Below, in pieces: positions 4,593 to 34,668 of a stretch of 51,705 nt of DNA. The DNA comes from Bacteroidota bacterium (GTDB taxonomy: Bacteria; Bacteroidota; Rhodothermia; Rhodothermales; UBA10348): the NCBI GenBank assembly GCA_029262835.1, contig JAJCYQ010000002.1:1-51705 (forward strand), in the 5' to 3' direction. The translations under genes and the position numbers were made by a program. Each line of letters starts with the position of its first letter. Positions within the stretch are counted from its first letter, which is position 1. Below the pieces are notes generated by a model, which saw only the letters and a program-made list of their open reading frames with translations, made no database searches and had not been told where the DNA came from.

Positions 4593-5916
4593 ATGTGCGC
4601 GTTCGAAGGCGCTCGGCGAGGCTGTCAACGGGCGTAAACATGAAGGCGCGGCCCTGCCGGTACTTCAAAAGCAGCTCCTCGCGTTCGAGAGCCAGTAGAT
4701 CCGTACGCGCCGTCTGATACGTAACGCCGTGGCTCCTTCGGTGACTTTCAATGGTGTATACGGTTCGAGGATGGCGCAGGGCATGGGAGAGCAGCGCCCG
4801 TTGTCGGTGATTGAAGCCGGAATCTGGCGAAAGCTGTTCGGAAACCCGTCGGATTTCGTCGGACTTGGCTGCGATGTAGGCAAACAGGTCTTCGACCGAG
4901 CGCACCAGGACGTTCATCTGTGACAGGATGACATACGTCAGGTCGTTTTCGTCCGTTTCGGTATAGAGGAAGGACTTCCCGTAGCGCGCAGGCGCCTTCC
5001 GCAGAATGCGGGAAATGGAGACGTATTCAGCGATCCAGAAACCCTGTTTGAGCAGAAACCAGTAGAAGAGCGCGCGCGCCGTGCGACCGTTTCCGTCCTG
5101 GAACGGGTGGATGTATGCCAGCCAGAAATGGAGGATGATGGCCTTTACGACCGGATGCATGAAGTGGCTGTGTTCCGGCGCGTTCACGAAATCGCACAGC
5201 GCCTGCAGGCGCTCGGGCAATTCCTCAGCCGGTGGCGGCAGGTGCAGCAGCGTATTCGTGATATTGTCGTATACGCCGATGCCGTCGCCCGGCTCGCGGA
5301 ACGAGACGGGCTCGGCGGTGACGCCATCGGTGAGCGCCCGGTGCACATCCTCGATCAGGGAAAGGGACAGTGGCTCTCCGGTCCGCCCGCGGATATGGAT
5401 CATGGTCCGGTAATTGTTCGCGATCATTCGCTCGCCCGCGGTCTGCGGCCTGCGGCCGGATCGGATCATTTCCTTGGCTACTCGGCGCGTGGTGGCGGCG
5501 CCTTCCAGCTGGCTCGACGTAATGGCCTCCTCCATGATGGATGTCTGGATGAAGCGTTGACCAGCGTCCCTTGTCAGCGGCTGGTGCGTCTTCAGCGTGC
5601 CGCCTATTCGGCGATCCAGTTTGTGCTGGTACTCAAGCAGCGGATCGGGCAGCGTGTACCAGAACGCCGTGCCATCGCGGGCAACGAACGTCGGGATGTC
5701 TCGCTTCATGGACAATCTGGCCATTTTCTGCACCAGCCAGAACACTTCCGGACGGACGCCGTGCGGCGCCTTCATGCGCCGTACGGTCTCCCAATGCCGG
5801 TATTTTCCCTCTGGCGCAGGCCCAATGCCCCGGCGCAGCAGCTCGGGCAGGCCATCCCAACTCGACAGCTGCGAAAACAGACGGGTAGTATCCGGTGGTC
5901 GCTCTGGAATTGTCAT
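4591..5916 (-). CDS. Fic family protein (AMP-transferase), 441 aa, with C-terminal winged helix
   Basis: Second Fic protein. The catalytic loop HPFQDGNGRTAR is at residues 270-281 with all key residues (His270, Asp, Asn, Arg). The inhibitory motif SSQLEG is at 134-139, again N-terminal to the Fic core (class II). The C-terminal 70 residues (HPRTVYTIESHRRSHGVTYQ and following) look like a winged-helix DNA-binding domain of the kind seen in self-regulating Fic proteins. A strong palindrome sits just upstream of the start codon, consistent with autoregulation. Expected activity is AMPylation, with Glu138 as the brake; target unknown. It converges on the rhomboid operon and is divergent from the large YD-repeat gene. 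Confidence 0.92.
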   Translation of the reverse strand: MTIPERPPDTTRLFSQLSSWDGLPELLRRGIGPAPEGKYRHWETVRRMKAPHGVRPEVFWLVQKMARLSMKRDIPTFVARDGTAFWYTLPDPLLEYQHKLDRRIGGTLKTHQPLTRDAGQRFIQTSIMEEAITSSQLEGAATTRRVAKEMIRSGRRPQTAGERMIANNYRTMIHIRGRTGEPLSLSLIEDVHRALTDGVTAEPVSFREPGDGIGVYDNITNTLLHLPPPAEELPERLQALCDFVNAPEHSHFMHPVVKAIILHFWLAYIHPFQDGNGRTARALFYWFLLKQGFWIAEYVSISRILRKAPARYGKSFLYTETDENDLTYVILSQMNVLVRSVEDLFAYIAAKSDEIRRVSEQLSPDSGFNHRQRALLSHALRHPRTVYTIESHRRSHGVTYQTARTDLLALEREELLLKYRQGRAFMFTPVDSLAERLRTRT

Positions 5917-20686: not shown

Positions 20687-21589
20687 ATGACAAGCCACAG
20701 CAAGCAAAAGGGCACGGACCTGAGCTCCCGAGTCACTCTCTCTCACAAAGACTCGATTCGTCGATTGCAGTTGGACCATCCCGACTGGTGGTGTTACCGA
20801 AGCACCAGTGAGGTGCTCATTCGCCAGTTCGTAGAACATGTGTTGGCATTGTCAGTGAACTATCGCCGTGGAGACGATATCATTGCAGAGGTCTACTCTG
20901 GATTCGTCGTTGAGATCACCGAAAGGTTTTTCTGGGTAACTGCGGCGCACGTTGTAAATGAGCTCCAAGCATTACCGAAGCATCCGAATATTGAGATCAT
21001 CAGCGCCCGATGGTGGGATAATTGCACAGAGGCCGGTGCTGAGACAGTACCCATGGATATCGGCTCCATTGACGCATTTGCATTTGACGAGAGCGAGAGC
21101 GACATCGCGTTTGTCCGACTCGGCGTACTGGAAGCGACCAATATCCTGAGTGCTGGAGGAATAACACCGTTGACTGAGAAGGCGTGGCGGAGTGAGGAGG
21201 CAGCAGAACCGGTTGGTCATTATCTCGTGGGGTTCGCACATCAGGATGTCAAACTGGATTCGCGTGCGCACACAGTCGAGTCATCGCTTGGTTGTATCCC
21301 CATTCAAGAGATGAATAGTTCAGACCTTCGTGACATTGGCATATCTGGAGATGACAGAACGGCGTTTTATGGAGAGATCATCCCATTCAGTGGTGAACCC
21401 AGACTGCCGGAATTGGACGTCAAGGGCATGAGCGGAGGCCCGGTCTTATCGATCGAGCCGAGTGAACACAAAGGCCTTGTATATCGACTGGTCGGTGTAC
21501 AGAGTAAATGGTTCCTTCCCCCCCATCGTATTGTTGTAGCCGGACGGTTCCACCGAGTCGTGGAAGCAGCGCGGCAGCCTTCCGCCTAA
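20687..21589 (+). CDS. Trypsin-like serine peptidase (S1-type)
   Basis: 300 residues, no signal peptide, so probably cytoplasmic. The chymotrypsin-fold triad is visible: His88 in FWVTAAHVVNEL, Asp139 in ESDIAFVRL and Ser249 in VKGMSGGPVLSIE (GxSGGP). Spacing and order (His-Asp-Ser) are as in S1/HtrA-like peptidases; there is no PDZ domain. The family is often annotated as trypsin-like peptidase domain protein and occurs in defence loci. It precedes the type ISP restriction enzyme by about 100 bases in the same direction, suggesting one transcription unit. Substrate unknown. Confidence 0.82.
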   Translation: MTSHSKQKGTDLSSRVTLSHKDSIRRLQLDHPDWWCYRSTSEVLIRQFVEHVLALSVNYRRGDDIIAEVYSGFVVEITERFFWVTAAHVVNELQALPKHPNIEIISARWWDNCTEAGAETVPMDIGSIDAFAFDESESDIAFVRLGVLEATNILSAGGITPLTEKAWRSEEAAEPVGHYLVGFAHQDVKLDSRAHTVESSLGCIPIQEMNSSDLRDIGISGDDRTAFYGEIIPFSGEPRLPELDVKGMSGGPVLSIEPSEHKGLVYRLVGVQSKWFLPPHRIVVAGRFHRVVEAARQPSA

Positions 21590-21689
21590 CTTCCATCAAG
21601 AATGTCAGATCGAATGGCTCGTGATGCGTATCGTACGACCGGCCCTACTTGTGAATGAGTATCAACATCAGCCGTTCAAGATTGACCAC

Positions 21690-24600
21690 ATGAGTACGAG
21701 TATCCACGATATCCTGGCCGAATTCCGAGATGCAGCGCTCAACAATCGCGAATTGGGCGACAAGTTTGAGCGACTCATATGCCGATATCTGCTACTCGAC
21801 CCGCAATACGCCGAGCGCTTTTCACGGGTATGGCTATGGAATGAGTGGCCGCTCAAGGGCAACGTGGGTGACACTGGAATCGATATCGTGGCAGAGGAGG
21901 AAGCTACAGGAGACCTGGTGGGCATTCAGTGCAAATTTTACCTCCCTGGCCACCAGCTGGTGAAATCAGACATTGACTCCTTCATAGCGACACTTGGCAA
22001 AAAGCAGTTCGCTTCTGGAATCATTGTCTCTACTACGGATAAATGGGGTTCGAATGTTGAGCACACCATTAAGGACCAGAGCAAGCCGATTCAGAAGCTT
22101 CGAGTCCAGGACCTGGACGCATCGCCCATAGACTGGTCTAGCTTTTCACTTGATGCGATCGACAAGCTCAAGCTGAAGAAGAAGCGAGAACCGAGATCTC
22201 ACCAACTGAGGGCTATAGCGGACGTAAAGGATGGGTTCGAAGCGTATGATCGTGGCAAGCTCATCATGGCATGTGGCACCGGAAAGACTTATACGTCGCT
22301 CGCAATAGCTGAAGAGGTCGCACTCGGTGGCAATGTCCTGTTCCTCGTTCCGTCCCTCGCTCTCCTCGCACAGAGCTTGCGCGAGTGGACAGCTTATTCA
22401 AAAAAGCCCATACACGCCCTCGCGGTCTGTTCAGATGCTAACATTGGCCGCTACAAGCGGAAGGAATCGGACGATGCAGAGATCGATGTCTCCGACCTCG
22501 CCTTTCCCGCTACCACAAATACAAAATCCCTCATCCGACAGTGGGAAGCCCTTCAAGGCAAGATCAAAAAGCGTAAACAGTCGAAGGAGAATCGAGGTAC
22601 GGCGGTGGTCTTTTCTACCTACCATTCAATTGCTTCTGTTCACGAAGCTCAGGTGGCTGGTCTTCCCGACTTTGACCTCGTTATCTGCGATGAGGCCCAT
22701 CGTACTACCGGAGTCACCCTTACAGACCAAGATGAATCCCATTTCGTAAAAATCCACGATTCTGACTACATCCGCGCATCAAAGCGTCTGTATATGACCG
22801 CGACGCCACGTGTTTACGGTGACGCAACGAAGTCGAAGGCAGATGATGCGAACGCGGCCCTTTGCTCCATGGATGACGAAACTCTTTATGGTCCTGAGTT
22901 TCATCGTCTTGGTTTTGGTGAGGCCGTTGAGAATTACCTGTTAACTGACTACAAGGTTCTCGTTCTCGCCGTAGACGAAGCATATGCGGCTAAGACGTTT
23001 CAGGCTCAAATCACGGATGCTGACAACTCTCTGAAGCTTGACGACGCGGTTCGAATCACGGGCTGCTGGAATGGTCTGGCAAAGAAACTCGACCACACTA
23101 CAGACGACCAAACGGAATTATACGGCGACACGGCTCCAATGCGTACAGCCGTTGCGTTCTCCAGATCGATCAAGGATTCCAAGGCCTTCTGCGCATACTT
23201 CGAGGATCTCGTGGAGTCTTACAAGGCTGACCATCCAGACGAGGAAAACTTACTCGACGTTCAAACGGACCATGTCGATGGAAGCATGAACGCCATCACC
23301 CGTGCGAGCAAGCTAGACTGGTTAAAGGAACATGGACCTGCGTCTCGTTGCCGCATCCTATCCAACGCCAGGTGTCTCTCTGAGGGGGTGGATGTTCCAA
23401 GCCTCGACGCCGTGATATTTCTGAATCCGCGGAACTCTGTGGTCGATGTCGTTCAGTCCGTTGGTCGAGTCATGCGGAAAGCACCACCAAAGCAATTCGG
23501 ATACATCATTCTCCCAATTGGTATTCCAGCAGGAATGAGTCCTGAGGAGGCCCTCAAAGACAATAAGAAGTACGCCATCGTGTGGCAGGTCCTCCAAGCG
23601 CTACGCTCACATGATGATCGCTTCAATGCCACTATCAACCAGATTGAACTGAACAAGAAAGCACCACCACAGATCGGGATCATTGGGATTGGAGAGGGAA
23701 GCCCTGGAGGGGACGACACCGGTTCAAAATCTGAAGGTGACGGAACGGACAGGCCGCCCACGATTGCGGAGCATACCACTTTTGACTTCTTCCATCAGCT
23801 TGAGGAATGGAAAGATGCTCTCTATGCTCGGATCGTTAAAAAATGCGGCGAACGGCGCTATTGGCACAAATGGGCTGAAGATGTCGCCAAGATTGCCCAG
23901 CGCCACACGGATCGCATTCAACTCCTGCTTGACGACGGAAACCCCGAGCACGTAGAAGCCTTCGACCGGTTCTTCAAGGGTCTTCACCTCAACATTAACC
24001 CGGCCATTTCCCGTGACGAGGCCATTGAGATGCTTTCCCAGCATCTCATAACCAGGCCCGTTTTTGATGCTCTCTTTGCAGACTATGCCTTTTCGGACCA
24101 CAATCCAGTGTCACAAGCTATGCAGTCCATGTTGGACGCACTTAAGGATCAGGCTCTCGAAAAGGAGACGGCCAGTCTTGAGGGTTTCTATGCGTCCGTC
24201 CGAACACGTGTCACTGGAATCGATAATGCAGAAGGAAAACAGGCCGTAATACTGGAGCTCTATGACAAGTTCTTCCAAAGTGCCTTTCCAAAGATGGCCT
24301 CCCGACTGGGAATCGTGTATACGCCAATTGAGGTTGTCGACTTTATCATCCGTTCCGTCGAAGACCTGCTCCGACACGAATTCGACGCATCCCTAAGTGA
24401 CCAAGATGTCCACGTCATAGACCCCTTTACCGGTACCGGAACGTTCATCACTCGTCTCCTGCAGAGCGGCCTGATTCATCCAGAAGACCTCCGCAGAAAG
24501 TACACCAGCGAGCTTCATGCCAACGAGATTGTCCTTCTTGCTTACTATATCGCCGCAGTAAACATCGAGGAGACTTATCACAAACTCCAGCAGGCGTCTC

Positions 24601-26678
24601 AGGACCAAGTACGCTACGACCAGGACAAGAAAGACGAACTGCCCGACTACGTTCCATTCGACGGCATCGTACTTACCGACACGTTTCAGCTAGCTGAGAC
24701 GTCGGAACAGGTCGACATGCACGACATCATGTTCCCAGTGAACAATGAACGAGTCACCCGGCAGAAGCAGGCCCCTATTCGTGTTGTAATTGCCAATCCG
24801 CCCTATTCTGCCCAGCAACAGAGCGAAAATGACTCGAACAAAGGACTTGCGTACGAGACCCTCGACCAGAGAATTCGAGAGACGTACGCAGCAAAGTCCA
24901 ATGCCACGCTGCTCAAGAATCTATACGATTCGTATATCCGAGCCATTCGCTGGGCCAGCGATCGAATCGGTACGCAAGGCGTCATCGGCTTCGTGACCAA
25001 CGGTTCGTTCATCGACAGCAACAATATGGACGGTCTACGTGCATGTCTGATGGACGAATTCACATCGCTCTACGTTTTCAACCTTCGTGGAAATCAGCGG
25101 ACCTCAGGCGAATTGTCCCGGCAAGAGGGAGGTAAAATTTTCGGCTCCGGGTCCCGCACTCCAGTTGCAATCTCCATTCTCGTCCGCAACCCTGCCAAAA
25201 CCACGCCTGCTGAGCTTTTTTACTATGACATCGGTGACTATCTGTCCCGCGAGGAGAAGCTCGGCATCATCGCCGATTTCAAAAGTATCAACGGGCTCCA
25301 TCAAGAGAAAAAATGGCGTAGGATCAAGCCGAATACCGATGCTGACTGGATCAACCAGCGAGACCCTGCTTTCGAGGCGTTCATTCCACTGGGAGACAAG
25401 TCAAGTCCGACCTCACTTACGTTTTTTGAGAATTACTCCCAGGGTGTGCTTACGAGTCGAGATGCATGGTGCTACAATTTCTCGGAAGAGGCTGTCGCTC
25501 AGAATATTCAACGCATGATCGAGTTCTATACAGAGCAAGTCGCTGCCTTCAGACAGAAATTCGGCTCCGAACCCGAACCCCGAAGGAAACGTAAGAAGTT
25601 GGTTGAACGGTTTATCGACACGGATCCCAGGTGCATTTCATGGTCCAGAGCATTAAAGGCAGATCTCAGCCGTTTCAAGCCTCACACTTTCGACACCGAT
25701 GGGCTTCGTACTAGCATATACCGACCCTATACAAAGCAGGTGGTTTACTTCAATCGGGCATTCAACGAGATGGTATACCTGAATCACCAGCTATTTCCAG
25801 AGCCTGAGTCTGACAATCTTGTGGTGATTCTGGACAGTCGCGGATCAACAAAGCCGTTTTCAGCTTGGATTTCCAGATTTCTTCCCGATTACGAGCTGAT
25901 TTCAAAGGGTCAATGCTTCCCGCTTTATCTTTACGAAAAGGTCGAGGTCAACGACGGCGAACTTGAACTCATTTCCGTTGACCGTGACGGTGGCGGTGAG
26001 CTCATCAATGGGTATCGTCGCAAGTCTGGAATTTCCGACGGTATCCTCACCGAGTTTCGCGATGTCTACGGAGACGACGTAGTCAAGGAAGACATCTTCT
26101 ACTACGTTTACGGCATTCTACATACCCCTGAATACCGCGAGCGATTCGCCTCCGATCTCAAAAAAATGCTGCCTCGCATCCCGCTTACCAAGGAACGCAC
26201 CTACTATGAGGCGTTTGTCCAAGCTGGCCGGGACCTTTCGCACTGGCACCTGAACTACGAGACGATCGAGCCACACCCAGATGTAAACGAGCATTCCGAT
26301 CAGTTGGGACTGGACGAATGGGAACTCTACAAGGTGACGAAAATGACCTTCGCCCGCCCGACTGCCTCGCAGAAGGCCGAGGGACAAAAGTGGGACAAGA
26401 CGCGCATCATATATAACGGTAATGTCACCCTCAGCGGCATTCCGCTGAAAGCATACGATTACGTTGTGAACGGAAAGCCAGCACTCGAATGGATCATGGA
26501 GCGCTACCAAGTGACTCGTGACAAGAAGAGCGGCATAATAAATGATCCCAATGATTGGTGCCGAGAGCATGATGATCCCAGGTACATCGTCGACTTGGTC
26601 AAGCGAGTTACGCGTGTATCGATTGAGACCGTGCAGATTGCAAACTCACTCCCGCCTATCAACGAGAGGCAGAGCTGA
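21690..26678 (+). CDS. Type ISP single-polypeptide restriction-modification enzyme
   Basis: About 1662 residues from the chosen ATG (an in-frame ATG 69 bases upstream gives a non-family extension). Domain order is that of LlaGI/LlaBIII-type enzymes. Mrr-like nuclease: GIDIVAEE with Asp65, then IQCKFY with Gln80/Lys82. SF2 helicase-translocase: Walker A MACGTGKT near 193-200, DEAH near 334-337, YMTATPR, SVGRVMRK. Then a coupler, an N6-adenine methyltransferase (motif I DPFTGTGTF near 911, motif IV NPPY near 1035) and a C-terminal target recognition region. All catalytic motifs look intact. Role: one-strand adenine methylation of host sites and translocation-dependent cleavage of unmodified phage DNA. 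Confidence 0.92.
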   Translation: MSTSIHDILAEFRDAALNNRELGDKFERLICRYLLLDPQYAERFSRVWLWNEWPLKGNVGDTGIDIVAEEEATGDLVGIQCKFYLPGHQLVKSDIDSFIATLGKKQFASGIIVSTTDKWGSNVEHTIKDQSKPIQKLRVQDLDASPIDWSSFSLDAIDKLKLKKKREPRSHQLRAIADVKDGFEAYDRGKLIMACGTGKTYTSLAIAEEVALGGNVLFLVPSLALLAQSLREWTAYSKKPIHALAVCSDANIGRYKRKESDDAEIDVSDLAFPATTNTKSLIRQWEALQGKIKKRKQSKENRGTAVVFSTYHSIASVHEAQVAGLPDFDLVICDEAHRTTGVTLTDQDESHFVKIHDSDYIRASKRLYMTATPRVYGDATKSKADDANAALCSMDDETLYGPEFHRLGFGEAVENYLLTDYKVLVLAVDEAYAAKTFQAQITDADNSLKLDDAVRITGCWNGLAKKLDHTTDDQTELYGDTAPMRTAVAFSRSIKDSKAFCAYFEDLVESYKADHPDEENLLDVQTDHVDGSMNAITRASKLDWLKEHGPASRCRILSNARCLSEGVDVPSLDAVIFLNPRNSVVDVVQSVGRVMRKAPPKQFGYIILPIGIPAGMSPEEALKDNKKYAIVWQVLQALRSHDDRFNATINQIELNKKAPPQIGIIGIGEGSPGGDDTGSKSEGDGTDRPPTIAEHTTFDFFHQLEEWKDALYARIVKKCGERRYWHKWAEDVAKIAQRHTDRIQLLLDDGNPEHVEAFDRFFKGLHLNINPAISRDEAIEMLSQHLITRPVFDALFADYAFSDHNPVSQAMQSMLDALKDQALEKETASLEGFYASVRTRVTGIDNAEGKQAVILELYDKFFQSAFPKMASRLGIVYTPIEVVDFIIRSVEDLLRHEFDASLSDQDVHVIDPFTGTGTFITRLLQSGLIHPEDLRRKYTSELHANEIVLLAYYIAAVNIEETYHKLQQASQDQVRYDQDKKDELPDYVPFDGIVLTDTFQLAETSEQVDMHDIMFPVNNERVTRQKQAPIRVVIANPPYSAQQQSENDSNKGLAYETLDQRIRETYAAKSNATLLKNLYDSYIRAIRWASDRIGTQGVIGFVTNGSFIDSNNMDGLRACLMDEFTSLYVFNLRGNQRTSGELSRQEGGKIFGSGSRTPVAISILVRNPAKTTPAELFYYDIGDYLSREEKLGIIADFKSINGLHQEKKWRRIKPNTDADWINQRDPAFEAFIPLGDKSSPTSLTFFENYSQGVLTSRDAWCYNFSEEAVAQNIQRMIEFYTEQVAAFRQKFGSEPEPRRKRKKLVERFIDTDPRCISWSRALKADLSRFKPHTFDTDGLRTSIYRPYTKQVVYFNRAFNEMVYLNHQLFPEPESDNLVVILDSRGSTKPFSAWISRFLPDYELISKGQCFPLYLYEKVEVNDGELELISVDRDGGGELINGYRRKSGISDGILTEFRDVYGDDVVKEDIFYYVYGILHTPEYRERFASDLKKMLPRIPLTKERTYYEAFVQAGRDLSHWHLNYETIEPHPDVNEHSDQLGLDEWELYKVTKMTFARPTASQKAEGQKWDKTRIIYNGNVTLSGIPLKAYDYVVNGKPALEWIMERYQVTRDKKSGIINDPNDWCREHDDPRYIVDLVKRVTRVSIETVQIANSLPPINERQS

Positions 26679-27292: not shown

Positions 27293-29179
27293 GTCGAGTC
27301 GGCCGAGGGAACTGCCCCCTCGGCCGCTCACAGAACCCGGCGTGAACCTCTCGACTCACCGGGCTCTTGTCGCTCCAACCACAAAGCTCCCACGCCCGCT
27401 CCAATGAGCGAACAGCGATGGCGACTGCCTTTTCTGACGGTCGAGCCACGCATATGCACGGGTTTTGTGCCCACGAAGGCGTTTATGTTTCCTCATTGCC
27501 CAACGAACGATCAAGCTGTCGACGTACTTTGCAAGGGGCTGGAACTCCGAACCCCGGTACTTGCAATAGTACGCCATCCAGCCACGCAGTCGTGGACCTG
27601 TCCAGTCAGCCAACGCTTGAAGATCAAGGTGGCTGTATTGAAACATCCCACTCTCGCGTAGTGTCCGACGCATCGCCGTCAGGGCACTTCGGCTAACTGC
27701 CGGAGTGAAACCCATTCGGATTGTCCCGTCACGGGACTTGAATTGCCGAGGCCTGAACGTATACCCAAGGAAGTCAAACTGGATAGCAGGGTAATCCCGC
27801 CGCCGGTCGCTGTCCTTGCAGTAGACCACCCGAGTCTTTTCCGGATGGAGTTCAAGCCCACACTCCTGAAGCCGAGTTGCAAGATGCTCGCGCATCTGAT
27901 GTGCTTCGGCTTCGCTGAGACAATGGAGAATGCCATCATCAGCGTAGCGGCAGAACCAGACCCCCTGATGGTGGCTGGCCAGCCAGTGATCCAACGCATA
28001 GTGCAGAAACAGATTGGCGAGAAGCGGTGAAAGCGGCCCACCCTGGGGCGTACCCACCGTCCTTTTCACAACTATTCCGTCACTGCGCTGCATCGGAGCT
28101 TTCAACCAGCGTTCCACATGGAGTAGGATCCAACGCTCCTGACAATGATGGCGAACCGCGCGCAGCAGCAGTTCATGGTTGATGTTGTCGAATAGGCCAC
28201 GGATGTCGTACTCAAGCACCCAGTCGCGTTGCCAGCAACGCCGACGAGTGATCCCAAGTGCGTCGTGTGCGGAGCGCCCCGGCCGGTAGCCATAGGAATC
28301 AGGATGAAACACCTTCTCCAGTTCAGGCCCCAGCGCGAGCACCACCGCCGTCTGGGCGATCCGATCGCTTACGGTCGGCACGCCCAGCATCCGTTCTCCA
28401 CCAGACTTCTTCGGTATCGGGACAGCTTTTACCGCAGGTGGAAAATAACTGCCCGATGAAAGCCGATTCCAGATCCGGTAAAGATTCCCATTCCGGTTTT
28501 CATCGAAGTCTTCGATGGAAACTGCATCAACCCCTGATGCACCACGATTCTTTCTCACACGGTGATAGGCTTCCCATATCAACCGCTTAGGAATCACAAA
28601 CGGTTTTGTCGACGTCAAGAGCTCATCCTCCTTCTAGAGTTGGCAATTGGATCGACCAGAGCGACCCGGTCCCTTTGCTCAGCAACCATTACAGCCACTT
28701 CATCGCTACTACGGACCAGTCCGTCCTCGAAACATGCATCGGTACTCTGTGCCTCGTTTTGTTTCACTTGGCAGGCTCCCTTGGCATCACGTTCCGAGTT
28801 CCCGCAGTTCCACCAAAGCGCCTGGATCAAGATCACGCCACCTCTATGCCGGACACCACCCACCCAGTCAACAGGCTCCCGATGGGCTCGTCCCAGAGGT
28901 AGATGTCGCCCCCGGTTTTGATGTCGTCTAATCAGTTTCGACACGTCGATAGTGATTCGTTTGCACTCGTCTTCTTGATCCTTACCTGACACACCACATG
29001 GATGAGCCTTCTCCTCCGACGCTCACGACAACGGTCTTTAGCCAATGCCGCTCGGAGGCGGTTTGAAGCCAGCCCCTGCAGGCAGACTCCGGCGGGTCGG
29101 TCCCGCCATCGCTTCGGCAGCTTCTCATGCTGCCCGATCAGCTCTATGCCGACCGAAGCCACATTGCTGCGGCACACAC
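27293..29179 (-). mobile_element. Group II intron with intron-encoded protein
   Basis: About 1.9 kb on the - strand. The 3' part holds a recognisable domain V hairpin (GAGCCCGGTGAGTCGAGAGG, closing with GCCGGGTTC). A domain VI stem follows (GGCCGAGGG with CCCTCGGCC) and the intron probably ends CTCGAC near 27293. The 5' end is placed at a GTGTG motif near 29177-29179, uncertain by a few bases. Domain I-III RNA should occupy 28640-29179, which has no credible gene; the maturase frame sits in domain IV. It adjoins a truncated IS and a sigma-like gene. Confidence 0.78.
27356..28618 (-). CDS. Group II intron reverse transcriptase/maturase
   Basis: 420 residues. The reverse transcriptase domain spans about 10-290, with GASGVDAVSI, DSYGYRPGRSAHDA, VLEYDIRGLFDNI, TPQGGPLSPLL (190-200) and the catalytic YADD (225-228), all intact. 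The maturase (X) domain is at about 300-400. There is no C-terminal HNH endonuclease, so mobility would depend on priming at the replication fork or other endonuclease-independent routes. The start is TTG at 28616-28618, eight bases after a strong AAGGAGG ribosome binding site (28629-28637 region), which is unusual against SD-poor neighbours and fits an imported element. It splices its host intron and promotes retrohoming. Confidence 0.93.
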   Translation of the reverse strand: MTSTKPFVIPKRLIWEAYHRVRKNRGASGVDAVSIEDFDENRNGNLYRIWNRLSSGSYFPPAVKAVPIPKKSGGERMLGVPTVSDRIAQTAVVLALGPELEKVFHPDSYGYRPGRSAHDALGITRRRCWQRDWVLEYDIRGLFDNINHELLLRAVRHHCQERWILLHVERWLKAPMQRSDGIVVKRTVGTPQGGPLSPLLANLFLHYALDHWLASHHQGVWFCRYADDGILHCLSEAEAHQMREHLATRLQECGLELHPEKTRVVYCKDSDRRRDYPAIQFDFLGYTFRPRQFKSRDGTIRMGFTPAVSRSALTAMRRTLRESGMFQYSHLDLQALADWTGPRLRGWMAYYCKYRGSEFQPLAKYVDSLIVRWAMRKHKRLRGHKTRAYAWLDRQKRQSPSLFAHWSGRGSFVVGATRAR

Positions 29180-29391
29180 ATCTATCCTGACAGTGGGGGC
29201 ACGTGACGCCTTGTTTGCAGCATCGCATCTAGCGGCAACAGCCAATCTGGGTCCTTCGCACGCACGGCAAAATTATTGAAGCAGGAAGCTTCCCTTGAAG
29301 GGTTTTCCACTTTTTCCAGAATTGCTTCGGCGTCATGTCCGCGCGCACCAGTTTCGACGGCAAGGATATATATGACGATGTATACTGAAGA

Positions 29392-29916
29392 ATGAAATCC
29401 GAGGCACCCCAATACACATCTGCCGAAGCCCGCACGGCTCTCGAAGACCTAGCCGATGCTGACTACAACAAACTCATGCTTATCGCAATATCGTGGGTGC
29501 GGAAGAGGATCAGCCAGAACGCATGGACACCGGAAGACCTTCTCCAAGAAGCCTTTAGGAAAACGCTGGATGGGACTCGCGGCTGGAGCAAAGCTGTCAG
29601 CATTATCAAGCATTTGGATGAGGTAATGAGAAGCGAATCGTCACACCTTGCTAAGCAGGCCTCGTACTTCGCACCGCTCGATCATGCTTCTGCTGAGACG
29701 AGTGATGACTCCGACGCTCGCTTAGAGGTGTGCGATGAACTCGATCGCCGATTGGCTCTCTTCAAAGAAGACCATCGAGCGCTTGATCTTCTCCGCCTGA
29801 AAGGCGAGGGCTTTTCTCCATCCGAAGTTCAGCGCAGGCTTGGTATCACTAAAACGGAGTATCAATCTACCACAAAGCGAATAAGACGGCGCCTCACAAG
29901 ACACCTACTCCAATAG
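29392..29916 (+). CDS. Sigma-70-like (ECF-type) transcription factor
   Basis: 174 residues. The N-terminal part (about 25-65) resembles sigma region 2 (WVRKRISQNAWTPEDLLQEA). The C-terminal part (about 118-172) is a region-4-like helix-turn-helix (KGEGFSPSEVQRRLGITKTE, then KRIRRRLTRHLLQ). Between them is an acidic linker. No anti-sigma gene adjoins. It starts a compact run of genes: the XRE gene follows after 12 bases, then ImmA/IrrE and the ubiquitin-like genes. It probably directs or modulates expression of this cassette. Annotation as sigma factor is by motif layout only. Confidence 0.7.
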   Translation: MKSEAPQYTSAEARTALEDLADADYNKLMLIAISWVRKRISQNAWTPEDLLQEAFRKTLDGTRGWSKAVSIIKHLDEVMRSESSHLAKQASYFAPLDHASAETSDDSDARLEVCDELDRRLALFKEDHRALDLLRLKGEGFSPSEVQRRLGITKTEYQSTTKRIRRRLTRHLLQ

Positions 29917-29928
29917 ACCGGGAATCCC

Positions 29929-30465
29929 ATGAGGTCAATTGAACGAGACCAAATCGAAATGAACCAGGCACTCCGCGACATCATCATTGAGTCTTCGGAA
30001 GAAGAAATCCGCGACGCCGTTGCAAGTGCGGGGGGTGACTTTCACGCGTTGGCCTCCCGAGGCCGGGCAGTGGCCGAACGGGCGCTTGCTGAAATCGAGA
30101 GTGAAAGTGCCCAAGATCTGCGCAAGGGGCTTGGTGCGCTCATCTACATGCTTCGCCGCCGCGACGGTATATCAATAGAAGACCTTGGAGCTCAGGCGCG
30201 CGTTGACCCTGGCGAGCTTACGCGGCTTGAGGATGACTACGGGTTTGACCCCAACCCCCGAACGGTTTATCAGCTAGAAAAGCATTTTAAGCTTCCAGAG
30301 CGGAGCCTTGTTCTGCTTTCCGGAGCGGTGAAGGTGGAGAGCGCCGTTCGCTCAGAGGCGGTGCGTTTCGCAGCAAGTTCAGAGAGCATCGTCAAGCTTT
30401 CGCGCGAGGAAAAGCACCTTCTTAATCGATTCGTAAGGTTCCTGCGCGAGCAGACTGACGAATGA
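29929..30465 (+). CDS. XRE-family HTH regulator
   Basis: 178 residues (start at Met1, or Met11 at 29959). The XRE helix-turn-helix lies at about residues 66-125: LGALIYMLRRRDGISIEDLG, then ARVDPGELTRLE. Flanking helices are charged. It overlaps the ImmA/IrrE gene by ATGA (30462-30465). XRE + ImmA/IrrE pairs usually form a repressor and a metallopeptidase that cleaves it on a stress signal; here the pair stands ahead of a ubiquitin-like conjugation operon. Confidence 0.85.
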   Translation: MRSIERDQIEMNQALRDIIIESSEEEIRDAVASAGGDFHALASRGRAVAERALAEIESESAQDLRKGLGALIYMLRRRDGISIEDLGAQARVDPGELTRLEDDYGFDPNPRTVYQLEKHFKLPERSLVLLSGAVKVESAVRSEAVRFAASSESIVKLSREEKHLLNRFVRFLREQTDE

Positions 30466-31385
30466 GAAACGCACCGATCGACCCATTTGCTGCCCAGGAC
30501 ATCCGGGATCAAGTGGACAAGGTTCTTAGCGGGTTGGGAAATCCGGCCCCTCCAGTCGACCTGAGGGAGGTCCGCGAGCTCTTGAAGCTCGACCGCCAGT
30601 TCTACAGTAGTACTAACACGGGTCCGCTTCGCGAGTCAATCAGTGCAGTCAAGATTGGCGCAAAACAGATCGCGAAGCGCCCAACGCTCATCCTTGATGT
30701 GGTGCGCAAGGCCGGTCTTAAGGCGCTTTGGCTTCCTGATCGGCGGAGAATTCTGATTGACGAAGGGATCCCTGACCTCAAGAAGCGCCACACCGAAGCC
30801 CACGAAATCACCCATAGCATAACACCGCACCACCAGCATTTTCTGTTCGGAGATGATGAGGAGACGCTAAGGAGTTCGTGCCACGAGAAGCTTGAGGCCG
30901 AGGCCAACTATGGCTCGGGCCGCCTCTTGTTCTTGGGTGATCGGTTTGAGCAGGAGGCAAGTGAGCTTCCGCGCACCCTGGCCACGGTTAAGCGCTTAGC
31001 GAAAGGCTACGGCAACACGATTACAATGACCCTGTGGCGGCTCGTTGAAGAGGCACACCAAGGAACGCCCATGTTTGGAGTGATCTCTGTTCACCCGATT
31101 CGCCTTGGTCCCGAGTTCGACCCGCGGCTTCCCTGCCGGTACTTTATTGAGTCTCCGGCCTTCAGAGAGCGCTTCGGAAATGTGACAGAGGCCTCCGCTT
31201 TTCAAGCAATTCAGAGATATGCGTCGGGGAGAGCGGGGGGGCCGCTTGGGGTGGGCGAACAGGTCTTTATTGGACAGCGGGGAGAGCGCCATCTGTTTAG
31301 AATGGAGACGTTCTTCAACGGGTACCGGGCGCTGACCCTTGGGACGTATGTAAGGCCGGTCGCCACGGTGGTGGCAGCGTCCTAG
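30462..31385 (+). CDS. ImmA/IrrE family zinc metallopeptidase
   Basis: 307 residues. Zinc-binding HEITH motif in RHTEAHEITHSITPHH (near residues 112-124), and the downstream glutamate-containing helix LEAEANYGSGRLLF that supplies the third ligand in the family. The C-terminal half (about 190-300) is a second, less conserved domain of unknown role. Expected activity: regulated cleavage of the partner XRE protein, relieving repression. Translationally coupled to that gene by a 4-base overlap. A 97-base gap to the ubiquitin-like gene may hold a second promoter. Confidence 0.88.
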   Translation: MRNAPIDPFAAQDIRDQVDKVLSGLGNPAPPVDLREVRELLKLDRQFYSSTNTGPLRESISAVKIGAKQIAKRPTLILDVVRKAGLKALWLPDRRRILIDEGIPDLKKRHTEAHEITHSITPHHQHFLFGDDEETLRSSCHEKLEAEANYGSGRLLFLGDRFEQEASELPRTLATVKRLAKGYGNTITMTLWRLVEEAHQGTPMFGVISVHPIRLGPEFDPRLPCRYFIESPAFRERFGNVTEASAFQAIQRYASGRAGGPLGVGEQVFIGQRGERHLFRMETFFNGYRALTLGTYVRPVATVVAAS

Positions 31386-31482
31386 AAAAATATCACTGGG
31401 CATGTCCGCGGGACTCGAATTCGTTGGCATAGGTAGGTGAGTGGGCACTTCAGTCTGCTCTTTATACATAGATGCTACAGCC
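31386..31482 (+). promoter_or_regulatory. Gap before the ubiquitin-like operon, possible promoter
   Basis: 97 bases separate the regulatory module from the Ubl gene, the only sizeable gap in the cassette. It contains an AT-rich TTTATACATA about 25 bases before the Ubl start that could be a promoter -10/-7 region. Inference only. A GTG at 31441 is in frame but the ATG at 31483 is preferred. Confidence 0.35.
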
Positions 31483-31824
31483 ATGAAAGACACTGCCCCA
31501 ATAGATGCGCCCGAAGAGCTTGATGAACTCGACATCGAGGTTTTCACGAAAGAGAACCCCCCGGAATGTCGGAAGCCGCATGCGCGATTCTACATCATCA
31601 GGGTCGACCGGGAAAAGAAGCGTGTGCCCCAGGACTCGCTGACCGGAAGTGAGATTCTCGCTCTTGTCAACAAGATTCCCTCCAGCCACAAGCTCTTTCA
31701 GAAAATTCGAGGCGGAGAAGTCCTTGTTGTTGAGCCGAATGAGGCTATCAGTTTTCGGAAGCCGGGCGTCGAACGGTTTCAGACCATTCCGAAAGACACG
31801 ACTGAGGGCAGTTCAGTTGACTGA
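31483..31824 (+). CDS. Multiubiquitin-family ubiquitin-like protein (single domain)
   Basis: 113 residues from the ATG at 31483. The beta-grasp Ubl domain spans about 34-102: ARFYIIRVDREKKRVPQDSL, GSEILALVNKIPSSHKLFQK, GGEVLVVEPNEAISF, PGVERFQT. This matches the bacterial multiubiquitin domain family (PF14452), though only one repeat is present. The acidic N-terminal tail is probably disordered. The C-terminus ends TEGSSVD with no di-glycine, so maturation or a non-GG conjugation chemistry would be needed. The stop overlaps the E2-like start. Predicted role: the modifier of a bacterial ubiquitin-like (Bub/Bil-type) antiphage system. Confidence 0.85.
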   Translation: MKDTAPIDAPEELDELDIEVFTKENPPECRKPHARFYIIRVDREKKRVPQDSLTGSEILALVNKIPSSHKLFQKIRGGEVLVVEPNEAISFRKPGVERFQTIPKDTTEGSSVD

Positions 31825-32230
31825 CCCCCGGCGCCAATTTGAATTACCGGCGACTGACCGCGAGTATCTCGACGGTCGAGGTTTATACTGGGAGACCGTG
31901 TCGGAAAACAACACCCGCTGGCTTCTAGTGCACGACTATCCAATAGTCGCCGGATACACCTCTTCTAGCGCCAGCTTGGCTCTGGAGTTGCCCAAGAGTT
32001 ATCCAGACACGCAGATAGACATGGTCTATTTCAGACCCCAACTGACTCTCATTGAGCAAGGAGCGATACGCCAGTTGACCGACCGGTCCTTCGACGGCGA
32101 GAGATGGCAACGGTGGTCGAGACACCGCACAAACGCCAACCCGTGGCGGCGAGGCTACGATAGCGTAGAAACGCACCTGCTTCTCGTAGAGGAATGGCTC
32201 GAAAGAGAAGTTCGGGGGCAGGCGGCATGA
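31817..32230 (+). CDS. E2/UBC-like protein (prokaryotic E2 family E), no cysteine
   Basis: 137 residues from a TTG at 31817 that overlaps the Ubl gene by 8 bases. The open frame reaches 31649, but upstream of 31817 it only mirrors the Ubl gene. Family-like landmarks: FELPATDREYLDGRGLYWE, RWLLVHDYPIVAGYTS, LALELPKSYPDTQIDMVYF, FDGERWQRWSRHR, WRRGYDSVETHLLLVEEWLE. There is no cysteine anywhere in the protein, so it cannot form the classical E2 thioester; it may be a scaffold or use different chemistry. It overlaps the next start by ATGA (32227-32230). Confidence 0.82.
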   Translation: MTDPRRQFELPATDREYLDGRGLYWETVSENNTRWLLVHDYPIVAGYTSSSASLALELPKSYPDTQIDMVYFRPQLTLIEQGAIRQLTDRSFDGERWQRWSRHRTNANPWRRGYDSVETHLLLVEEWLEREVRGQAA

Positions 32231-33624
32231 ATCGCGTCAAGTTACGGTTAACCGAACGGCAGCATTCAAGCCTGAAAGACCACCTTTTCCCGGGCGACGG
32301 GATGGAGGCTGTCGCCATTGCCGTGTGCGGCCGCGCGTCGGCATTAGGCACCGATGTTCTGGTTCTTCATGAATTAGTTCTGGTCCCGCATGATGCCTGT
32401 CGTCGGTCTCCGGTGCGGGTCTCTTGGCAACCTACTGTCGCCGAAGGCGCTTTTCGGGATGTGGAAGAGAAGGGCTTCGGCATCCTTAAGATCCATAGCC
32501 ACCCCAACGGACTCGCTGGATTCTCGGAAACAGACGATCTGTCAGACGCCAGGTTTTTTGAATCCGTCTACGGATGGGATGAGAGAGATGGGCCTCATCT
32601 GAGCGGCATCATGTTGCCAAATGGTAGGATCCTCGCCCGGGCCGTGTCTGCTGCGGGCGACTTCCTTCCGGTGGATATGATTGAAGTCGTCGGCAGTGAC
32701 GTAGTGCTATGGACAGATTCCTCTCCCGATGACGTATCCTCATTTGCCCAGCGACACGCGCAATTATTCGGGGAACACACGACGAGCCTCCTGAGCAGCC
32801 TGCGTGTGGCGGTTGTCGGCTGTTCGGGAACGGGCAGTCCCGTCATTGAACAAATGGCTCGCTTGGGTGTTGGCGAGCTGGTCCTAGTGGATCCCGACCA
32901 TTTGGAGGTGAAGAATCTAAACCGCATCCTTGGCGCGACCCTTACCGATGCGAAGCAGAATAGAATGAAGGTCGACGTACTTGCCGAGCACGTTCGCAAC
33001 ATGGGCCTTGGTACTCGGGTGCATTCATTTTCGGCAACCCTTGAGAACCCGGACGCCCTATCCGCCGTGGCGGTGTCTGACTTTGTGGTGGGTTGCATGG
33101 ACTCTTTGTCTGGAAGGCATGTTCTCGGGCGCATGGCCCGGTACTATGTGCTCCCGTATATCGACGTCGGAGTGAAGCTCGAGGCGCTGGAGGACAGTAC
33201 CATTAACCAGGTAGCGGGCAGCGTGCACTACTGCCAGCCCGACGGCCTGGACCTCATGGACCGCGGCGTATTCTCGGCTGGAATGCTCGAGGCTGAAGAA
33301 CTGTTGCGCACGAACCCCGAGGAGTATAAGGCTCGCCTACAGCACGGATACATTCGTGGTGTTCAGGTTGAGCGCCCCGCGGTTGTCAGTGTCAACATGT
33401 GTTTTGCGAGTCTTGCCGTCATGGAACTCTTGGCCCGGATCCACCCTTTCCGGATGGATGACAACGAAGACATTGCGACGTTTCAGCTCAGCCTTAGTCA
33501 TTGTCAGATCGAAACGGAACCTGACGACTTGGCACCTGACAGACAGCGGGCAACGGTAGGGCTAGGAAATGTTGATCCGCCGCTCGACATGCCAAGCTTG
33601 GCCGCCGTAGCGCCTGCGAGATGA
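32227..33624 (+). CDS. JAB (JAMM) deubiquitinase-like / E1 (ThiF) fusion
   Basis: 465 residues from the ATG at 32227. The N-terminal JAB domain (about 15-150) has an intact JAMM zinc site: Glu27, HSHP (His90, His92), Ser100, Asp103 within HSHPNGLAGFSETDD. The C-terminal E1/ThiF adenylation domain (about 190-430) has the nucleotide loop VVGCSGTGSPV (198-203 core), VLVDPDHLEVKNLNRI and a GCMDSLSGR segment; a candidate catalytic cysteine is in SVHYCQPDG. Predicted roles: activation of the Ubl C-terminus with ATP, and removal or processing of Ubl by the JAB part. Coupled by ATGA overlaps on both sides. The fusion keeps activation and deconjugation in one chain. Confidence 0.9.
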   Translation: MNRVKLRLTERQHSSLKDHLFPGDGMEAVAIAVCGRASALGTDVLVLHELVLVPHDACRRSPVRVSWQPTVAEGAFRDVEEKGFGILKIHSHPNGLAGFSETDDLSDARFFESVYGWDERDGPHLSGIMLPNGRILARAVSAAGDFLPVDMIEVVGSDVVLWTDSSPDDVSSFAQRHAQLFGEHTTSLLSSLRVAVVGCSGTGSPVIEQMARLGVGELVLVDPDHLEVKNLNRILGATLTDAKQNRMKVDVLAEHVRNMGLGTRVHSFSATLENPDALSAVAVSDFVVGCMDSLSGRHVLGRMARYYVLPYIDVGVKLEALEDSTINQVAGSVHYCQPDGLDLMDRGVFSAGMLEAEELLRTNPEEYKARLQHGYIRGVQVERPAVVSVNMCFASLAVMELLARIHPFRMDDNEDIATFQLSLSHCQIETEPDDLAPDRQRATVGLGNVDPPLDMPSLAAVAPAR

Positions 33625-33953
33625 GGCTGTTCTCGGCATTGTGGGTCTGGGTTCGCCGGCTGTTCCGCTCTGGTCAGCCACATCGGACCGCTGTTGTCAG
33701 TGAGTTGCCAGAAAAGCTGAGGAAGGAGACCGTCTATCTGGTTGGCGAGGACGACATCTTCTGGTGTGCGGCGCTCCTGTGCCCCTGCGGCTGTCATTCG
33801 GTCATACAGCTGAACCTGACCAAGTCGACCCACCCATCCTGGCAAGTCAGTCAACACCCAGAATCAAGTCTGACCACACTCAGCCCCTCCATTCACAGAA
33901 CCAGTGGGTGTCGTAGCCAGTTTTTTTGCTGCAAGGCCGCATTTGCTGGGTGA
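33621..33953 (+). CDS. DUF6527 family protein, apparently frameshifted near the C-terminus
   Basis: 110 residues as encoded. Family landmarks: VGEDDIFWCAALLCPCGCHS, IQLNL, SWQVSQHPESSLTTLSPSIH, GCRSQFF. After the T7 run at 33921-33927 this frame gives CCKAAFAG and stops. The -1 frame across the same run gives FFLLQGRICWVNTEAGF and ends at 33992-33994, which looks like the expected family end (CRSHFF..GRI.W). So there is a one-base deletion, a sequencing error, or -1 ribosomal slippage. DUF6527 genes accompany multiubiquitin operons; I recall the family as BubE but cannot verify the name here. Coupled to the E1 gene by ATGA. Confidence 0.8.
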   Translation: MRLFSALWVWVRRLFRSGQPHRTAVVSELPEKLRKETVYLVGEDDIFWCAALLCPCGCHSVIQLNLTKSTHPSWQVSQHPESSLTTLSPSIHRTSGCRSQFFCCKAAFAG

Positions 33954-34333
33954 ACACGGAGGCCGGTTTTACAACAGCGCCAATGCCGAGCTGATATTAG
34001 GAATTGGCCTCACTCGGTGCGAATTCGCCCGCGCCAGACCAACCCCTGAGATCCACGCAGATAATTGCGATGTCGGACCTTACCACCACGGCGAAGCCTG
34101 CTGTCTATCTTTTCAATAAGGTCGTCTATTCACTTCTGACGAGGTCTCCCTATGACTTCGGAACAGGCTCTTCCCTCTGACTGACACAAACAACAACTCA
34201 AAACTGAGCGATCCGCCAACGGTCGTTGTCCCGATGGGCTTCCCTATCTGGTCCCAATATCTACGAGGGCGGTGTCATATTTATGTCATACCCTGGCTGA
34301 AGACCGGCAATATTCAAAAAATTTTTTGATCGT
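33954..34333. other. Intergenic stretch after the ubiquitin-like operon
   Basis: Apart from the possible frameshifted C-terminus (to 33994), no gene is visible. A perfect 16-base palindrome TCAAAAAATTTTTTGA lies at 34314-34329, right before the strong terminator. Confidence 0.5.
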
Positions 34334-34395: not shown

Positions 34396-34668
34396 TCAGT
34401 TGTGACCATCGGCCCCGATGTTATGTCCATCAGCACCACCCGCGTTGTGGCCGTCAGCACCACTCGCGTTGTGGCCGTCAGCACCACCCGCGTTGTGGCC
34501 ATCAGCACCACCAGCGTTGTGCCCATCAGCACCACCAGCGTTGTGGCCGTCCGCGCCTACGAAGACAGTTTCACCGTCCGACGGTCCAACAAGTGAGTCA
34601 GTGGAGCAGGCGCTCAGTGTCAGCGTAAGGGCTGCGACTGTGGCGAGGGTCATAAAGGTCTTTTTCAT
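34396..34668 (-). CDS. Tiny lipoprotein made of ADGHN repeats
   Basis: 90 residues. Lipoprotein signal peptide MKKTFMTLATVAALTLTLSA with lipid Cys21. After a short STDSLVGPSDGET linker the protein is seven copies of ADGHN, mostly as the 8-residue unit GADGHNAG. The array carries one His and one Asp per repeat and ends the protein. A metal- or ligand-binding periodic surface peptide is conceivable; I recognise no family. It has its own promoter space upstream and a perfect terminator 25 bases after its stop. Confidence 0.85.
   Translation of the reverse strand: MKKTFMTLATVAALTLTLSACSTDSLVGPSDGETVFVGADGHNAGGADGHNAGGADGHNAGGADGHNASGADGHNAGGADGHNIGADGHN
34397..34553 (-). repeat. 24-bp coding tandem repeat (GADGHNAG)
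   Basis: Tandem 24-base units with small differences (CCACCCGCGTTGTGGCCGTC-type on +), in frame within the lipoprotein gene; the final units are shorter or altered (GADGHNI, then ADGHN). Units of 24 allow copy-number change without frame loss. Confidence 0.9.

Follow-up and report, generated by a model that had tools for sequence, protein, structure and literature searches.

The silencing and induction of ubiquitin-like and CBASS operons is an open question. The controllers CapW, CapH+CapP and CapK+CapS either repress by binding DNA or act on a protein that does so (PMC13373217). CapP cleaves CapH, and pairs of CapH+CapP adjoining Bub (bacterial ubiquitination-like) operons are already known (PMC13373217). 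For Bub itself, protection against phage has yet to be shown (PMC13373217). In the Calp system of type III CRISPR a sigma factor is freed through cleavage of its anti-sigma factor (PMC12751052). Both halves of the locus described here thus have precedents, one in CapH+CapP beside Bub (PMC13373217) and one in the sigma release of Calp (PMC12751052), and their combination is provisionally regarded as new. A sigma/XRE/ImmA set together with Bub was undescribed in the literature searched, which missed the primary CapH/CapP, Bub and Bil papers, so that the novelty remains provisional.

A seven-gene locus with a Bub operon

The window, i.e., the whole stretch of 51,705 nucleotides that was analysed, carries seven genes at 29392-33953, all of which were confirmed, every one on the + strand (Table 1). 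Their junctions measure, in order, 12 bases, an overlap and 97 bases (31386-31482), followed by three further overlaps. A preliminary description had counted five junctions of 12 bases or overlap, which is correct. Its end of the locus at 33994 was wrong and belongs to another frame, and its statement that two modules are fused fails, as there is no gene fusion between them and a fusion exists for JAB-E1 only. Two further records, a plasmid of Planctomycetes (L017) and a Rhodothermales-labelled contig (L078), have the identical seven-gene order, and because of this recurrence the arrangement is regarded as more than chance.

Table 1. Coordinates of genes and sites of the locus within the window.
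Feature	Position	Strand	Evidence
Weaker promoter-like site TGTCCG-N18-GCAAGG, before sigma gene	29336-29365	+	22/20000 shuffles reach score
Sigma factor, diverged ECF type, 174 aa	29392-29916	+	Family profile, relatives, AlphaFold fold
Middle protein, CapH-like XRE with N-terminal segment; probable anti-sigma/repressor	29929-30465	+	HTH_19, 7e-5
N-terminal sigma-linked segment of the XRE protein (about aa 12-57)	29962-30099	+	Seen only beside sigma
ImmA/IrrE (CapP-like) metallopeptidase	30462-31385	+	PF06114 above cut-off; PADLOC capP, 2.2e-10; HEITH motif
Promoter-like site TGTCCG-N18-GCATAG, towards Bub genes	31403-31432	+	Matrix score, exact match
Ubl, single multiubiquitin domain	31483-31824	+	PF14452, 1.4e-8
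E2-like protein (BubB), TTG start, no cysteine	31817-32230	+	PF14462, 1.5e-36; PDB BubB
JAB-E1 (JAB-ThiF) fusion, BubCD	32227-33624	+	PF00899, 4e-28; PF14464, 1e-4; PDB BubCD
DUF6527 gene, frameshifted	33621-33953	+	PF20137, 2.7e-11; frame compared with relatives

The last four genes constitute a Bub operon, which is shown by sequence and profile matches; protein conjugation itself is inferred. The profile of the JAB-E1 family, with the window protein as first sequence, matches Citrobacter BubCD in the PDB (4.7e-123, 455 residues), and the E2-like protein matches Citrobacter BubB (about 5.3e-21). In the cysteine-free E2 a W-S-R-H stretch is invariant in all 91 of 91 relatives. The Ubl additionally matched multi-ubiquitin chains at 2e-4. 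Its C-terminus reads ...DTTEG-SSVD, i.e., TEG followed by four residues, and since most single-gene relatives stop at or near TEG, a trimming of the tail is plausible, an inference from the comparison of C-termini only. In the DUF6527 gene, comparison with relatives places a frameshift close to the 3' end, in seven consecutive T near 33920, and CRSQF stands in place of the conserved CRSHF motif (H to Q). The gene is damaged here, and real decay and assembly error cannot be distinguished from the sequence.

The same four genes had been assigned to “Bub/Bil-type antiphage” systems, of which the Bub part held and the Bil part failed, while an antiphage role is unshown for Bub (PMC13373217). Bil operons have E1 and JAB as separate genes. 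A Bil identity was rejected, as there is one JAB-E1 gene here, with BubCD as its nearest match. Two Bub-type operons within one genome were observed elsewhere, about 3.6 kb apart and on opposite strands (L100, 1287-3694 and 7262-9709).

Upstream of the locus, a Type ISP restriction-modification enzyme is encoded at 21621-26678, preceded by an ORF (20687-21589) that reads like a trypsin-type protease. A group II intron lies on the - strand at 27293-29107, with Rfam matches at 28984-29107 and 27293-27368 flanking a maturase/reverse transcriptase (27356-28618). Just past the operon, a small lipoprotein-like ORF of GGADGHNA repeats was found on the - strand (34396-34668). The region of the Type ISP enzyme together with the Bub locus has a lower G+C content than its flanks and may represent a defence island.

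Sigma factor, partner protein and peptidase

The first gene encodes a diverged ECF-type sigma factor with regions 2 and 4, as is shown by profile and fold; binding of RNA polymerase and promoter recognition are inferred. A single-sequence scan of the window protein alone gave no Pfam sigma match. The family profile recognises ECF sigmas of the PDB across regions 2 and 4, and Sigma70_r2 was matched in 4 of 13 relatives. The top structural matches of the AlphaFold model (pLDDT 87) are sigma factors, with region 4 as the best-aligned part, and no Foldseek match fell below E 0.001. When the profile was run on 394 genomes of the phylum, one group of top matches stood apart, followed by many weaker ones, which we take to be ordinary ECF sigmas.

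Two variant arrangements were noticed among the loci. A second, clearly ECF-like sigma family is encoded divergently to Ubl operons in L106, L108, L115, L116, L122 and L127; its partner protein differs (GFLFPETVEEV...LAMAARE), and ImmA is present too. In L024, L091, L092, L093, L098 and L112, sigma and partner are followed by a protein of 400-480 aa in place of ImmA. This protein starts with MTTEVVVMN..GVALAADSA and appears Ntn-hydrolase-like by eye; the one representative tested had no Pfam match.

The middle protein of the window carries a CapH-like HTH and an extra N-terminal segment of about 45 residues, and the capH model of PADLOC matches it weakly (0.03). In relatives, the gene between sigma and ImmA usually encodes a protein of ~120-150 aa. 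The aligned ones are without HTH, and Pfam detected no HTH in the three sigma partners tested (L107, L109 and L136). A first segment profile, built from HTH-less partners only, was used to screen 17,991 ORFs of 118 loci (E<1), and every match was the gene directly 3' of sigma, including those of L017 (0.0084) and L078 (0.023). With this profile alone, the XRE protein of the window was not found below E=1. A second profile, to which L017, L078 and three more sequences were added and from which the window was excluded, detected the window protein at 3.6e-6. CapH-like proteins of sigma-free loci do not possess the segment. Among the matches of the first profile, likewise directly 3' of sigma, are fusions of the segment to an SNF2 helicase (L066, 5894-8104) and to an N6-methylase restriction-modification enzyme (L082, 3168-6077).

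Because all detected occurrences of the segment lie in genes immediately 3' of sigma, HTH-less partners included, we infer that it binds sigma and suggest that it represents an anti-sigma domain, for which no binding data exist. The second gene product thereby looks like a chimera of anti-sigma factor and CapH and not merely like a repressor; this assignment is inferred as well and does not distinguish inhibition from co-activation. The preliminary description, in which the peptidase cleaves a repressor, has to be changed in this point, and cleavage is still inferred. The predicted structure gives no support for an anti-sigma fold, as beyond the HTH the model of the XRE protein is of low quality (pLDDT 64).

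The peptidase retains the HExxH motif in the form HEITH. An AA[RNSF] motif common to ImmA partners occurs in 7 of 17 HTH-less partners at a background of 0.17, which is suggestive but weak. Viral contigs scanned with ImmA yielded no relatives.

A promoter-like motif between the modules and the distribution of the trio

Whether the 97-base gap separates two units or lies within one had been left undecided by the preliminary description. This question is largely answered, as the gap bears a sigma-type promoter motif common to other sigma-bearing loci. The motif was spotted by eye ahead of testing. A matrix was established from 28 outward-pointing sites of divergent sigma loci, with the window, L078 and L017 left out. 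The gap site tops the matrix ranking within the window (20.8 vs 13.9 for the next site), and no other spacing between 12 and 24 exceeds 16.7. None of 20,000 shuffled versions of the gap reached its score, and it is the only exact match to the motif in the window. An equivalent site lies between ImmA and Ubl in both L078 and L017 (2 of 20,000 shuffles each). The last base of the weaker site before the window sigma gene is 27 bases away from the ATG. On the + strand of the gap, scans for a consensus sigma-70 promoter and for terminators were negative.

Upstream of Ubl, the motif was detected in 11 of the 22 loci with sigma and in none of the 74 without. Among held-out sigma loci 2 of 11 carried it (p=0.015), a low count that we attribute to distant sigmas with other recognition sites, although this is inferred. 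Divergent sigma loci contain two outward copies of TGTCYG-N18-GCAT, one towards sigma and one towards the cargo; when such outward pairs were tested for symmetry locus by locus in Bacteroidota, they did not differ significantly from shuffles. Genome-wide, exact copies of the motif are about as frequent as expected by chance, which gives no indication of a wide regulon. An XRE operator does not explain the motif, because it is also found at loci where no HTH can be detected in the sigma partner. The gap thus likely holds a sigma-type promoter for the Bub genes, a prediction from the co-occurring motif without transcription data.

Sigma-anchored loci were drawn from a sample of the phylum, an alphaproteobacterial sample (385 genomes) and plasmids. 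They include 18 complete trios, of which 14 adjoin ubiquitin-like/E1 genes, two CBASS (L070 with SMODS and patatin, L075 with SMODS) and two unknown genes. This tally is our own count and small. Unrelated cargo in most relatives, which according to the preliminary description would have refuted a functional link, was not observed. In an E1-anchored scan, a sigma factor of the window type was present in 12 of 79 loci and the second ECF-like sigma, with its different partner and ImmA, in six more. XRE-ImmA pairs without sigma adjoin many Ubl and CBASS operons. On proteobacterial plasmids (L018-L023), a set of RHH, GNAT-annotated or hypothetical protein, XRE and ImmA without sigma was observed divergent to CBASS or Ubl operons.

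The loci L078 and L079 share a Ubl cassette of 94% identity and an upstream gene of 88% identity, and L079 contains a different XRE-ImmA pair where L078 has the trio. The breakpoint in L078 is located at 5382, i.e., 3' of the promoter site (5323-5352), from which we conclude that trio and promoter were exchanged together. The contig of L078 is short and possibly misbinned. As trio and promoter were swapped as a block, the modules are separable in evolution, yet they are likely coupled by the promoter, which is likewise inferred from sequence.

Proposed mechanism, alternatives and relation to known systems

We propose that the anti-sigma/CapH-like XRE chimera would, in the resting state, keep sigma inactive through its N-terminal segment. 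On a stress signal, the ImmA peptidase may then cleave the chimera and set sigma free; if CapP is a guide, this signal would be single-stranded DNA that arises from DNA damage. Free sigma would take RNA polymerase to the promoter in the gap and turn on the ubiquitin-like conjugation genes, and would probably also use the weaker site ahead of the sigma gene. What the computation shows are the genes, the fold of sigma, the segment specific to it, the promoter motif with its confinement to loci that bear sigma, and a repeated association with ubiquitin-like and CBASS operons. The inhibition of sigma by the segment, the cleavage by ImmA, the signal and the function of Bub are inferred only. On balance, and without any experiment, we slightly favour the view that the Bub operon is under cis control of a dedicated, protease-released sigma switch. 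The preliminary description centred on a switch for a ubiquitin-like operon that is controlled by a protease and has a dedicated sigma-like factor; this idea is thereby supported and sharpened.

The most serious alternative is plain control by CapH+CapP, in which XRE represses, ImmA cleaves XRE and the sigma-like protein, as an accessory or a relic, plays no part at the Bub promoter. The window protein indeed retains its HTH, many Ubl and CBASS operons adjoin a sigma-free XRE+ImmA, and CapH+CapP or CapW are reported at 219 of 544 Bub operons. However, the promoter motif tracks sigma and not XRE and is present where the partner is without HTH, and the N-terminal segment occurs with sigma only; we therefore consider this explanation unlikely.

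Even less probable appear two further readings. The middle protein could be a co-activator that aids sigma at the promoter, so that cleavage by ImmA would turn the system off. The computed evidence does not separate inhibition from activation, and a DNA-binding domain is kept in the window protein, but most partners lack an HTH, and both precedents, CapP and Calp, release expression through cleavage. The trio could also be a mobile regulatory cassette that came by chance to lie beside Bub genes under their own control. In favour of mere neighbourhood are the movement of the trio as a block in L078/L079, other cargo at some sigma loci and a region containing a restriction system and a group II intron; against it stand the promoter motif in the gap, one gene order in three distant records and the biased cargo.

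Beyond the protease-released sigma switch at this locus, a bolder reading, to which we incline by a narrow margin, is that of an undescribed controller family consisting of sigma, cleavable anti-sigma, ImmA peptidase and an own promoter class, which would work by sigma release instead of the lifting of a repressor and would be distributed across phyla in Bub, other ubiquitin-like, E2-E1 and CBASS operons. If true, the sigma/anti-sigma/protease controller would add a positive switch to the known controllers. With its readable promoter, a short reporter would suffice to test induction, and other genes turned on by a given defence switch could be predicted.

The cargo is the one of Bub operons (Citrobacter BubB and BubCD; PDB 9EA4, 9EAE), with Ubl, cysteine-free E2, JAB-E1 fusion and DUF6527 in common; the window differs from them in its controller and in the damaged DUF6527 gene. 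CapK+CapS (PMC13373217) is likewise a two-gene controller beside Bub and CBASS operons, but is composed of a kinase and a STAS-type repressor and has no sigma factor. The Calp system (CalpL-CalpT-CalpS, type III CRISPR; PMC12751052) follows a like logic in an immune setting, in which a protease cuts an anti-sigma factor and sets sigma free. Membership in the Calp system was rejected, as the Lon-SAVED protease is absent and ImmA/IrrE (PF06114) is found instead; in addition, there is no CRISPR or cyclic-nucleotide signal, and the action would be in cis on the Bub operon. The likeness is one of logic only, and no sequence relation to CalpS or CalpT is claimed. CapH+CapP of CBASS and Bub (Lau et al. 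2022, cited in PMC13373217) resembles the window in the HTH protein and the ImmA-type peptidase beside an immune operon, to which the window adds a preceding sigma, a sigma-linked segment on the HTH protein and a sigma-type promoter before the cargo.
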